Below, piece after piece: positions 15,660 through 19,247 of a DNA stretch of 44,411 bases; position 1 is the first letter of the stretch, and the number at the start of each line of letters is the position of its first letter. Source of the DNA: Gemmatimonadota bacterium (GTDB taxonomy: Bacteria > JAAXHH01). Below the pieces are notes generated by a model. That model saw nothing but the letters and a program-made list of their open reading frames with translations. It was not told where the DNA came from and did no database searches. The translations under genes were made by a program, and so were the position numbers. The DNA lies in the NCBI GenBank assembly GCA_026706345.1, contig JAPOYX010000139.1:1-44411 (forward strand), given 5' to 3'.

Positions 15660-16514
15660 ATGAGAAACAGGATGCGTATCCCCTGGATGAAGAGTACAGG
15701 CATGTTGGCGGGAGTTCTGATTCTCACTGTAGCGGCACTTGTAGTCCATGCTCAGCAGATACCGTACGAGCCCACGGCCGAAGGCCAGATTCCCGAAGCC
15801 ATCCTCGGCAAGGCAGGCGCGCCTCGCGGCGGCGACCTGGCCTATTTCGACGAAGATCAGGCTACGAAAGGATACCTGGCCGAACCGGAAGGTCCTGGTC
15901 CCCGGGGCGCCGTCATCCTGATCCATGAGTGGAACGGCCTGGTCGACCGCGTGAGGCAGGTAGCCGACGCCCTGGCCGCGGAAGGCTACGTCGCCCTGGC
16001 GGCCGACCTGTATTCAGGCCGAACGGGGAGCAACCGCGACGAGAACATGGCACTCGTGCGGGAAACCCTGGGCGATATGGACAAGATCATCCGCAACCTG
16101 GACGCGGCGGCGGCCTATCTGAGATCACGGTCCGATGTGAACGGCAAGATCGGCGCCATGGGCTGGTGCTACGGCGGCGGGGTCGCCCTGAGCTACGCCC
16201 TGGGCGGAGAGAACCATGACGCCACGGCCATCTTCTATGGACGGTTGCTCGACGATCCCGAACGTCTCCAGGCGATTCACCACGAAGTCTATGGCACCTT
16301 TGCCGGACTCGACCGCGGTCCCTCGCCCGAGCAGGTGGAACGCTTCGTCGCCGCGCTCCGCCAGGCTGGCGTGGAGAACGACGTGCATATATACGACGAC
16401 GTCAACCACGGGTTCTGGCTTTACGTGGATCGAGACCCGAATAACGAGGCACCCGCCTTGGACGCCTGGGAGCGGCTGAAGGCCTATCTGAAGCGGACCT
16501 TGGGTAGCGATTGA
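15660..16514 (+). CDS. Secreted dienelactone hydrolase family protein
   Basis: 284 aa alpha/beta-hydrolase. An N-terminal signal peptide (hydrophobic 15-30, likely cleaved after VHAQ) predicts periplasmic or extracellular location. The dienelactone hydrolase triad is Cys170 (GWCYGGG), Asp218 (FAGLD) and His250 (DVNHGF), with Glu90 in the HEWNGL motif that activates the Cys in family members. It would open lactones or esters; the real substrate is unknown. AAGGAG lies 9 bp upstream of the ATG and a good promoter lies further up. It is followed directly by the low-GC restriction-modification island. Confidence 0.88.
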   Translation: MRNRMRIPWMKSTGMLAGVLILTVAALVVHAQQIPYEPTAEGQIPEAILGKAGAPRGGDLAYFDEDQATKGYLAEPEGPGPRGAVILIHEWNGLVDRVRQVADALAAEGYVALAADLYSGRTGSNRDENMALVRETLGDMDKIIRNLDAAAAYLRSRSDVNGKIGAMGWCYGGGVALSYALGGENHDATAIFYGRLLDDPERLQAIHHEVYGTFAGLDRGPSPEQVERFVAALRQAGVENDVHIYDDVNHGFWLYVDRDPNNEAPALDAWERLKAYLKRTLGSD

Positions 16515-16574
16515 TGTTGATACATCACCGAATGAGGAAAGTGCTAAGGTATGCAAGGTGGGGTAAAGTTTTAG

Positions 16575-17897
16575 ATGGGAAAGACATCTGTCAAAAAAGT
16601 TAGTAAAGGATTCAGAGATCCTGCTTTCATGGCGAATAGGGATGTGCCTATACATCGCTGGGTGCCATGGATTGCAGGTTATTCGCACCAATTTGTTGAA
16701 GACGCACTTAAACGACACCTGCAGGATTTTAGCAGAGTTTTGGACCCGTTTGCTGGAGTCGGGACAACTCTTGTCGAGGCGGACCTTTCTGGACACGACA
16801 CCATAGGGTTTGAGATCAATCCCTATGCCGCAATGGTTTGTAGAACCAAGCTTGAGTCACATCATATTGACCTTCAAAAACTTCAAGTTGCTATCTCTGA
16901 ATTTATGGAGTATTCCAATGATGCTGAAACCGGCAATTGGCAACCCAAAGCTTCGGCTCCAAAAGGATTTCGCACAAGGGTACCTTTTTTTAGTCCGAAT
17001 GTCCTACGAAAGGTTCTGCTGTGCCAAGATTTTATTAAGCAAGAAAAATACACAGAGTTTTCAAATCTGTTTCGAGTCGCTTTTGCCGCGACGATGGTTG
17101 ACTATTCAAACTACTCATACGAGCCGAGTCTTGGACGGAAAAGTGCAGCGGGCCGTCCAGATGTCAGTGATTTTCCAGTCTTAGAAACAATAGCCGGTAA
17201 GATCTCGCAAATGGCCGACGATGCCCATTGGTATAGTAAGTCTCGCAATCGATCGAATAGGAGTGATGGCACTGTAATAAACAGCTCGTTCTTTGAAGAG
17301 TTCAAAAAGATTGAACCGGAGAGCATACATCTTCTCGTCACTTCACCACCCTACCTCAACAACTACCATTACAATCGCAATACAAGGCCACATCTCTACT
17401 GGCTGGATCTATGTCATAGTCCAGGGGACTTAAAAAGATTGGAGGATTTGAACTTTGGAACTTATTGGCAGAACGCTAGAGATCAAGCACAAATCGATCT
17501 CGATTCGACAATCCTGGATACGGAAATCAAGGAAACGATCGAAGAGGTGAGAAGCAAGAATCCAGATAAGGGTGTCTATGGAGGTGCGGGCTGGGCAAAT
17601 TATGCTACAAGGTATTTAAATGACTGCGTTAGGTTTATTGACGGTGCGAACTGGTGCCTGCGCCGAGGAACCACTGCACTTGTTGTAATCGGAAACAGCA
17701 TATTGCAGGGGGTTACTATTCCTACTGACAGGTTCTTGTCTAAAATCGCAGAAACCAGGGGCTTGGATACAGTTGAAATACATACACCTCGTAAGTCTAG
17801 GGTCGGAAGTAGCATTGTCGATTCCTCAGTCCGAGCTGGCAAATCGACTAAAGGATCGCGGTTGTATGAATCCATTGTGGAGTTACGTAAACCATGA
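16575..17897 (+). CDS. Type II DNA methyltransferase (N4-cytosine/N6-adenine class)
   Basis: 440 aa amino-methyltransferase, expected to protect the host from the nuclease encoded next to it. The AdoMet-binding motif I is DPFAGVGTT at 57-65, preceded by a motif-X-like segment (about 27-41). The catalytic motif IV is TSPPY at 256-260, followed by LNNYHYNR. The order X-I-...-IV, with nearly 190 residues between I and IV, is the reverse of the common beta class, so the target-recognition region may lie between them. SPPY favours N4-cytosine but does not prove it. AT-rich codon use marks it as transferred DNA. Its TGA overlaps the nuclease ATG (ATGA). Confidence 0.85.
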   Translation: MGKTSVKKVSKGFRDPAFMANRDVPIHRWVPWIAGYSHQFVEDALKRHLQDFSRVLDPFAGVGTTLVEADLSGHDTIGFEINPYAAMVCRTKLESHHIDLQKLQVAISEFMEYSNDAETGNWQPKASAPKGFRTRVPFFSPNVLRKVLLCQDFIKQEKYTEFSNLFRVAFAATMVDYSNYSYEPSLGRKSAAGRPDVSDFPVLETIAGKISQMADDAHWYSKSRNRSNRSDGTVINSSFFEEFKKIEPESIHLLVTSPPYLNNYHYNRNTRPHLYWLDLCHSPGDLKRLEDLNFGTYWQNARDQAQIDLDSTILDTEIKETIEEVRSKNPDKGVYGGAGWANYATRYLNDCVRFIDGANWCLRRGTTALVVIGNSILQGVTIPTDRFLSKIAETRGLDTVEIHTPRKSRVGSSIVDSSVRAGKSTKGSRLYESIVELRKP

Positions 17898-18490
17898 ACC
17901 TCGAATTGTATGATCCATTGACATATGAGAACCTTATGATGGGCTTGGTGGTAAGCTATGAAAAACAAGGGACTTTACCACTTAGTGAAGACTCCATTCG
18001 TAACATAGATGGACCAGGGATCTACTCGTTATACTATTCAGGTGAATTAACAATCTACAAATCTATCAAGGATTCACGCAGCAGACCTATTTATGTTGGA
18101 AGGGCCGTACCTCCAGGTTCAAGAAAGGGCGATTCGATAAACATATACTATCCAAGTTTGCGTAGCCGAATACGAGAACACTTGAAATCCATTAACCAGG
18201 TCCGTGACCTCACGGCGTCCCATTTCACATTCAGATCACTCGCCGTTGAGCCAGTATGGATTACATTAGCAGAGAGGTTCCTAATAGATCACTATTTGCC
18301 AGTTTGGAACCGGTGCATTGATGGTTTTGGCATTCACGATCCGGGTAAAGGTAGGCAGGAAGGAGAGAAGAGTTGGTGGGACACACTCCATCCTGGGCGA
18401 CCTTTTGCTGCAAATCTTAGAGTTGTGAAGACCCAAGAAGCTGCAATTGTTATGGTTAAACAGTTTTTTAAGAACTCTCAAACAAAGTAA
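17894..18490 (+). CDS. Eco29kI-family GIY-YIG restriction endonuclease
   Basis: 198 aa. The residues reported as catalytic in Eco29kI can be placed with matching spacing: Tyr44 (GIY), Tyr67 (YVG), Arg92 and His96 (4 apart), Glu127 and Asn139 (12 apart; AERFLIDHYLPVWN). The family is small homodimeric type II nucleases; Eco29kI itself cuts CCGCGG, but specificity cannot be inferred from this level of similarity. The start codon lies within the methyltransferase stop (ATGA), so the pair is translationally coupled, methylase first, as expected for a self-protecting selfish module. Codon use is AT-rich. Confidence 0.85.
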   Translation: MNLELYDPLTYENLMMGLVVSYEKQGTLPLSEDSIRNIDGPGIYSLYYSGELTIYKSIKDSRSRPIYVGRAVPPGSRKGDSINIYYPSLRSRIREHLKSINQVRDLTASHFTFRSLAVEPVWITLAERFLIDHYLPVWNRCIDGFGIHDPGKGRQEGEKSWWDTLHPGRPFAANLRVVKTQEAAIVMVKQFFKNSQTK

Positions 18491-18500
18491 AGTTGAATAC

Positions 18501-19247
18501 TTGACTCCCTTCGATCAGGCCGTAGCCGAAATCGACACTTTCGGTTTTACCATGCTGCCCGGCGTGCTGTCGGCGTCACAGGTACGCACGCTTCGTGCGG
18601 CGTTGATCCGCGTCGCTGCGGCGCACGGCGAGGCCGGTTACGAGAACCGCGGGGGGACTTCGCTGCTGGTGCGGAACCTGCCTACCCTGGACCCCGTATT
18701 CCTCCTGGTTGTCGATCATCCCGTCGTTCTGCCCATTTTGGAACGGGTGCTGGACAAGACCCTCGTGCTGGGCAGCCTGAGTTCCCGCATCGTGCGGCCG
18801 GGCGACGGTTTCCAGGATTTTCACAGCGATATACCGCAGCACATGCTGAACCCGGTTTCCCCTGTGATGATGAACACCATCTGGATGCTGGACGATTTCG
18901 ACGGGGAGATCGGCGGCACGCGCATCGTCCCCGGTTCGCACAAGAGCGGATGGGCCGGTCCGCCGGAGGGCATGGAGGTACCGCACGTCTACCAGCCCGA
19001 GGCTTCCGCGGGCAGCGTGCTGATCTTCAACGGACAGTGCTGGCACGGCGGCGGCGCGAACACCACCGACCGCAACCGGCACGCTCTTTTCGGGCACTAC
19101 CGCAAGTCCATGCTCCTCTTCCAGCTCGACCCCCACGACGGTTTCCGGGACGAGTGGTTCGAAGGGCTGTCCCCCCGGCAGAAGCAGCTTATGCGCATGC
19201 AGAAGGGAGTCGGCGCAAGCCACGCGGCGGACGATCATCTGCTGTAA
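18501..19247 (+). CDS. Phytanoyl-CoA dioxygenase (PhyH) family protein
   Basis: 248 aa from TTG 18501. An Fe(II)/2-oxoglutarate dioxygenase fold with the His108-x-Asp110 metal motif (FHSDIP), distal His182 (WHGGG) and Arg191 or Arg193 for 2-oxoglutarate. It hydroxylates an unknown small molecule. The start is unusual: homologous sequence begins abruptly at the right edge of the restriction island, and the expected ATG-ACT-CCC seems to have become TTG-ACT-CCC at the junction. No ribosome site is visible, and the frame stays open into the nuclease gene. It may therefore be poorly translated or coupled to the island transcript. A 6-bp hairpin (19239-19255) spans the stop. Confidence 0.8.
   Translation: MTPFDQAVAEIDTFGFTMLPGVLSASQVRTLRAALIRVAAAHGEAGYENRGGTSLLVRNLPTLDPVFLLVVDHPVVLPILERVLDKTLVLGSLSSRIVRPGDGFQDFHSDIPQHMLNPVSPVMMNTIWMLDDFDGEIGGTRIVPGSHKSGWAGPPEGMEVPHVYQPEASAGSVLIFNGQCWHGGGANTTDRNRHALFGHYRKSMLLFQLDPHDGFRDEWFEGLSPRQKQLMRMQKGVGASHAADDHLL

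Follow-up and report, generated by a model that had tools for sequence, protein, structure and literature searches.

The window, a 44,411-nucleotide stretch of DNA from a Gemmatimonadota bacterium, very probably holds a complete, recently acquired Type II restriction-modification (R-M) operon of the DraR1 type. Its methyltransferase (MTase) is predicted to place m4C in CCGCGG and its restriction endonuclease (REase) to cut CCGC/GG, with both target and activity carried over from homologues. Systems of this type are already known; what is added here is the type of the window's system and the breadth of its spread. The pair lies between two host genes in the following arrangement:

15660..16514, + strand: upstream host gene, dienelactone hydrolase (DLH) family (PF01738, 3e-43; all 9 congeners searched have a homologue at 88-92% identity)
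16512-16514, + strand: DLH stop codon TGA, left part of the former stop/start overlap (sequence against congeners)
16517..18503, no strand: inserted segment of about 1,987 bp, ends within about 3 bases either way (11 empty sites in congeners and GC content)
16575..17897, + strand: DraR1-type alpha-order amino-methyltransferase, 440 aa, predicted m4C on CCGCGG (PF01555, pCP1 homology, alignment)
17894..17897, + strand: ATGA overlap of the MTase stop and REase start (sequence; same register in many tandem relatives)
17894..18490, + strand: Eco29kI-family GIY-YIG restriction endonuclease, 198 aa, predicted CCGC/GG (PF09517, PDB Eco29kI, model, catalytic residues)
18501..18503, + strand: TTG, probable new PhyH start replacing the native ATG (shares the reading frame of the PhyH codons alignable to congeners)
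18504..19247, + strand: downstream host gene, PhyH family (PF05721; 87-96% identical homologue adjoining DLH in 9 of 9 congeners searched)

A two-gene insert in a host operon

The site is empty in 11 of 11 same-genus genomes searched (G001-G011), in all of which DLH runs directly into PhyH, the stop codon of one and the start codon of the other sharing bases in TGATG or TAATG. The search covered 16 genomes by way of both flanking proteins and a further 4 by way of flank DNA; the flank DNA search gave no match in two same-family genomes, which are therefore silent on the site. Comparison with relatives, suggested by the sequence-only reading as a means of fixing the exact ends, shows that native sequence ends at 16516 or 16517 on the left and restarts at about 18504 on the right, with about 3 bases of uncertainty. 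With the DLH stop at 16512-16514, the edges do lie within a few bases of the flanking genes, as that reading had it.

The segment from 16518 to 18503 has a GC content of 0.443 in host DNA of 63% GC. No other segment of the same size outside the insert (n = 38,453) falls below 0.590 GC (mean 0.627, sd 0.017), which bears out the earlier description of a lower-GC, two-gene module between high-GC genes. Of 85 rows whose flanks were long enough to compare, only one has a GC offset from its flanks more negative than the insert's -0.177; L163 is counted in this table, although as a duplicate of L162 it was excluded from the trees described below. Together, the 11 empty sites and the GC offset are good evidence of recent arrival, and acquisition of the cassette by recent transfer is supported. 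The case that would speak against it, the same genes at the same place in close relatives, was looked for and is absent, and PF09517, the family of the nuclease, is absent from the 11 congeners and from two same-family and two same-order genomes. That the ancestor of the genus already had the cassette and every other species lost it is next to negligible as a possibility: no point supports it, it needs 11 independent losses, or a few that restored the exact stop/start overlap, and the GC content of the insert is far from that of the host. An assembly chimera that placed foreign DNA in the contig is very improbable. The assembly consists of 293 contigs and its contamination is estimated at 4.61%, but a single contig carries both native flanks, the position is precise and keeps the frame, and a chimera would need to return to the same locus.

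The insert splits the DLH/PhyH overlap and severs PhyH from its native ATG; PhyH probably now starts at the TTG at 18501, to judge from its reading frame. The insert thus sits within a two-gene host operon, along the direction of the operon, and its own two open reading frames are intact and point the same way, with the MTase stop and the REase start sharing ATGA. The PhyH-family flanking protein has 34 matches in the window's genome (G000) and similar numbers in congeners, a large family expansion.

A Pfam scan of the 11 nearest neighbouring proteins found no integrase and no transposase, and no tRNA was found in the window, so for the proteins scanned the earlier claim of no mobility genes holds. 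The best direct match between the ends, GTTG-ATAC/GTTGAATAC, was rejected as a target duplication, since 2169 of 5000 shuffles scored equal or higher, in keeping with the earlier statement that no clear duplication is present. Inverted ends were also rejected (4110 of 5000 shuffles scored as high). With no integrase or transposase among the 11 nearest proteins and no significant terminal repeat or target duplication, the insert does not show the marks of an integrative mobile element or transposon-borne island; it has the empty site in relatives and the foreign composition of a recently inserted genomic island. It offers a clear example of an R-M pair that came in bare, free of carrier genes, and whose ends can be fixed against 11 empty sites.

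By default, entry would be ascribed to illegitimate recombination at a tolerated gene boundary. Alternatively, a longer piece could have come in by homologous recombination from a related strain that already carried the cassette here, a route consistent with cassette ends that coincide with a gene boundary, with scanned neighbours free of mobility genes and with host-like flanks. However, none of the genomes searched carries the cassette here, all 11 congeners being empty, and we consider this route rather unlikely. It does not conflict with the main reading of a recently acquired DraR1-type operon.

Predicted target and methylation chemistry

The REase is a member of the Eco29kI family of GIY-YIG endonucleases, as judged by profile, six residues and predicted fold. 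It matches PF09517 (RE_Eco29kI) at 166 bits (8.3e-49; curated cut-off 30.8) and matches the Eco29kI chains in the PDB, and its predicted model (pLDDT 94.3) reaches a TM of up to 0.85 to Eco29kI (3mx4_H). A fold comparison of the model returned no significant match other than Eco29kI chains, and the nuclease type proposed from the sequence is thus confirmed. Residues Y44, Y67, R92, H96, E127 and N139 align to Eco29kI Y49, Y76, R104, H108, E142 and N154, the active-site residues listed in PMC1952068, and none of the six varies across the 35 sequences aligned. The active-site match claimed for the nuclease therefore stands, whereas the near-identical spacing claimed with it holds for two of the five gaps: these are 23-25-4-31-12 residues in the window's enzyme and 27-28-4-34-12 in Eco29kI, so that three are 3-4 residues short. 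By analogy with this family, the REase most likely cleaves CCGC/GG, and does so most likely as a dimer.

In the MTase, motif I, DPFAGVGTT (residues 57-65), precedes TSPPY (SPPY at 257-260). The protein matches PF01555, and no m5C family is among its Pfam matches. It is 43.9% identical, over 97% of its length, to an enzyme of D. radiodurans plasmid pCP1. Of 22 plasmid records with a match to it, 14 are from D. radiodurans, and the enzymes of that species are its best relatives in plasmids. The window's MTase and the pCP1 enzyme share a well-conserved stretch around SNYSYEPSLG, located after motif I and before SPPY. The full-length homology and the position of FxGxG before SPPY are those of a DraR1-type MTase. 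An Eco29kI system proper has an m5C partner; here the partner has FAGVGT and then SPPY.

PMC6712171 shows by SMRT sequencing that M.DraR1 N4-methylates the second cytosine of CCGCGG, at 667 of 696 motifs, and that the mark is lost in a knockout. R.DraR1 is described in PMC10855626 as cutting CCGC/GG, and is reported there to cut the m5C form of the site as well. We take the pCP1 genes to be M.DraR1 and R.DraR1 because the record, which does not label them by name, is of a strain R1 plasmid and has several genes separating an Eco29kI-family gene from a site-specific MTase, in agreement with the published description. Given the homology of its MTase to M.DraR1, the window's system is most likely a DraR1-type m4C CCGCGG system, not an Eco29kI-type m5C pairing. 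Adjacent and intact MTase and REase genes with one predicted specificity, taken from homologues, place it in Type II.

The likeness to DraR1 (DraI) of D. radiodurans pCP1 extends to both genes (MTase 44% over 97%, Eco29kI-family REase 34.8% identical). On pCP1, however, about 10.5 kb separates the two, which point in opposite directions, whereas the window's genes are adjacent and overlapping. With the Eco29kI system (CCGCGG), the window shares the nuclease family, the fold (predicted here) and the active site; unlike the window's pair with its SPPY amino-MTase, the 310 Eco29kI-target systems assigned in REBASE are reported as m5C in PMC10855626.

At 44% MTase identity, the target could have drifted. 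We regard it as improbable that this is a working R-M pair with another target or methylated base, such as N6-adenine or a drifted site, which would make the CCGCGG m4C label wrong. SPPY-type enzymes can by sequence be N6A or N4C, and the MTase is 44% identical to the characterised enzyme and the nuclease 34.8% to the pCP1 nuclease. Nevertheless, the nuclease (Eco29kI) and the MTase (DraR1-like) belong to separate families that each indicate CCGCGG, and the same nuclease family stands beside the MTase in 61 of 80 loci (the best 80 of 153 relatives). CCGCGG avoidance was uninformative as a test of specificity. The window has 38 sites against 45.0 +/- 6.2 expected, and the insert itself has none, which says little at 44% GC; the lack of clear avoidance fits a recent arrival and gives no positive support for the target.

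In the proposed working of the DraR1-type operon, the MTase would mark CCGCGG sites across the host genome with an N4-methyl at the second C, and the Eco29kI-like nuclease, most likely a dimer, would cut unmethylated CCGC/GG in incoming DNA. The MTase gene comes first and the nuclease would be translated from the overlapping ATGA, an order and overlap that would help protection to come before cutting. For its transcription, the cassette probably relies on the host DLH-PhyH operon.

Spread and gene arrangement of the relatives

A genome-contig scan with the MTase alignment found 153 relatives, and arrangements were counted in the best 80 of these. A scan with the REase alone gave no match, its single-sequence peptide patterns probably being too strict. 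The best 80 of the 153 MTase relatives come from 20 named phyla, two of them archaeal, and from 2 loci without a phylum; 7 of the 80 are archaeal. Within this set an Eco29kI-like REase lies at most 1 kb from the MTase in 61 (43 convergent, 18 tandem), 18 have no intact nearby REase and one stops at a contig edge. The pair, convergent, is also carried by two viral contigs resembling copies of one element and by Haloarcula virus HJTV-2. At one locus, a second MTase fragment with an Eco29kI-like nuclease (L112:1044-2074) lies about 2 kb from the first MTase.

Close counterparts in arrangement are six tandem pairs (L084, L085, L087, L088, L102 and L106) from Chloroflexota, Nitrospinota, Pseudomonadota and Dadabacteria, which have the same gene order and close overlap as the window. 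Their MTases are up to 65-66% and their REases up to 59% identical to the window's, and most are closer to flank GC than the window's insert is. In HJTV-2, gp44-gp46 include an N4-cytosine MTase (31% identity) neighbouring an Eco29kI nuclease; that pair is convergent and viral, with a Trm112-family gene between, whereas the window's pair is tandem. The Trm112-family gene, gp45 (L052:4332-4550), overlaps the end of the MTase gene. Trm112 activates other methyltransferases, and a Trm112-dependent DNA m4C enzyme is conceivable in HJTV-2.

A separate sample of 384 genomes had PF09517 in nine. A DraR1-like MTase adjoins it in four of these: the window's own genome, G110, G178 and G248, with G110 and G248 in the same genus. 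An MTase with m5C motifs is found in three (G296, G208 and G195) and neither type in two (G142 and G075), the labels being assigned by motif pattern and not by profile. Two loci of the scan, L108 and L155, are very probably the same records as the G178 and G110 matches. With four of the nine PF09517 genomes among 384, and with relatives in many phyla, the pairing is widespread across lineages and uncommon per genome.

In the figures given by PMC10855626, systems with the CCGCGG target number 310 m5C against three m4C, and m4C is thus called rare. The same source reports a putative m4C system with a CCGCGG-type nuclease in Roseiflexus castenholzii and Roseiflexus sp. RS-1, fused into one open reading frame in RS-1; we compared these by description. 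In the open-access literature the only papers found directly on m4C CCGCGG systems were the two on Deinococcus, and other descriptions may exist, for instance in REBASE. With relatives in 20 named phyla, two of them archaeal, and in viruses, m4C CCGCGG systems would not be a rarity of Deinococcus and Roseiflexus.

Likely partner exchange, and nuclease loss

With this set of loci one can follow how nucleases are lost and how partners may have been exchanged between two methylation chemistries that share one target. In the MTase tree (85 rows), the window falls within a supported set of 27 rows, of which 16 are tandem, 11 lone and none convergent. Its nearest rows are Dadabacteria, Pseudomonadota and Nitrospinota, with an identity of at most 65-66% in the best 80 of 153 relatives, and no close donor of the cassette is among the relatives scanned. 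Several of the nearest relatives presumably come from marine sponges, going by isolate names.

The REase tree (82 rows) leaves out four of 19 tandem and two of 46 convergent loci, in which the REase piece is shorter than 540 bases, and four of 26 m5C-paired loci (L060, L169, L182 and L186). It groups the window's REase with those of the other tandem loci and of the L153/L158 group (18 rows, support 98/97), separate from a 38-row convergent group, whereas in the MTase tree the tandem clade adjoins L107 and L114. With all rows, the REase data rejected a single clade of the tandem loci (12 rows) with L107 and L114 (delta lnL 89.0, p 4e-6), and the MTase data rejected one of the tandem and lone loci with the L153/L158 group (33 rows; delta lnL 54.6, p 0.012). 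With the long branches removed and 54 matched rows kept, the REase data still rejected the tandem loci with L107, L114, L111 and L113 (delta lnL 58.8, p 0.0016), and the MTase data did not reject the tandem loci with the L153/L158 group (delta lnL 10.0, p 0.36). Because the MTase rejection vanishes on the matched rows, we grade as likely, rather than shown or secure, that the window's tandem clade exchanged its nuclease.

Two loci with DraR1-like MTases, L156 and L159, have REases that fall among the m5C-paired REases (set support 94/87 in the REase tree), a possible second exchange. In L156, L157 and L159, the REase lies in tandem about 48 bp after the DraR1-like MTase. Tentatively, and at somewhat below even confidence, we suggest a separate tandem m4C CCGCGG lineage that arose by partner exchange, with an MTase from the convergent DraR1-like lineage and a nuclease from another Eco29kI branch. 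Such a lineage would have crossed from phylum to phylum as a cassette of just these two genes and decayed repeatedly to lone m4C MTases, and in L156 and L159 a second exchange would have joined an m4C-type MTase to a nuclease of the m5C-paired group.

R-M systems are known to decay to lone MTases, and several loci fit this course. In L082 an intact MTase is accompanied by a 30-residue nuclease remnant (L082:5304-5393), and a near-identical sister, L106, has an intact nuclease. In L100 the nuclease is split by about 2 kb (L100:5281-7997) beside an intact MTase, and the near-identical sister L099 retains a piece of the nuclease in place. The lone alphaproteobacterial MTases L083, L086, L093, L094 and L105 have host-like GC, which suggests long residence as orphan methylases; L083 and L094 adjoin a fused anthranilate synthase gene. 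As 18 of the best 80 of 153 MTases have no intact REase nearby, an intact MTase alone is no proof of a working pair. At two loci (L090:5275-6651 and L091:5293-6669), the stop of a lone MTase overlaps the start of a GlmU-like gene (by Pfam in L090 only) by ATGA, the register in which tandem loci carry the nuclease. At another (L097:5493-7420), a lone DraR1-like MTase adjoins an NgoMIV-family nuclease and a second N4/N6 MTase.
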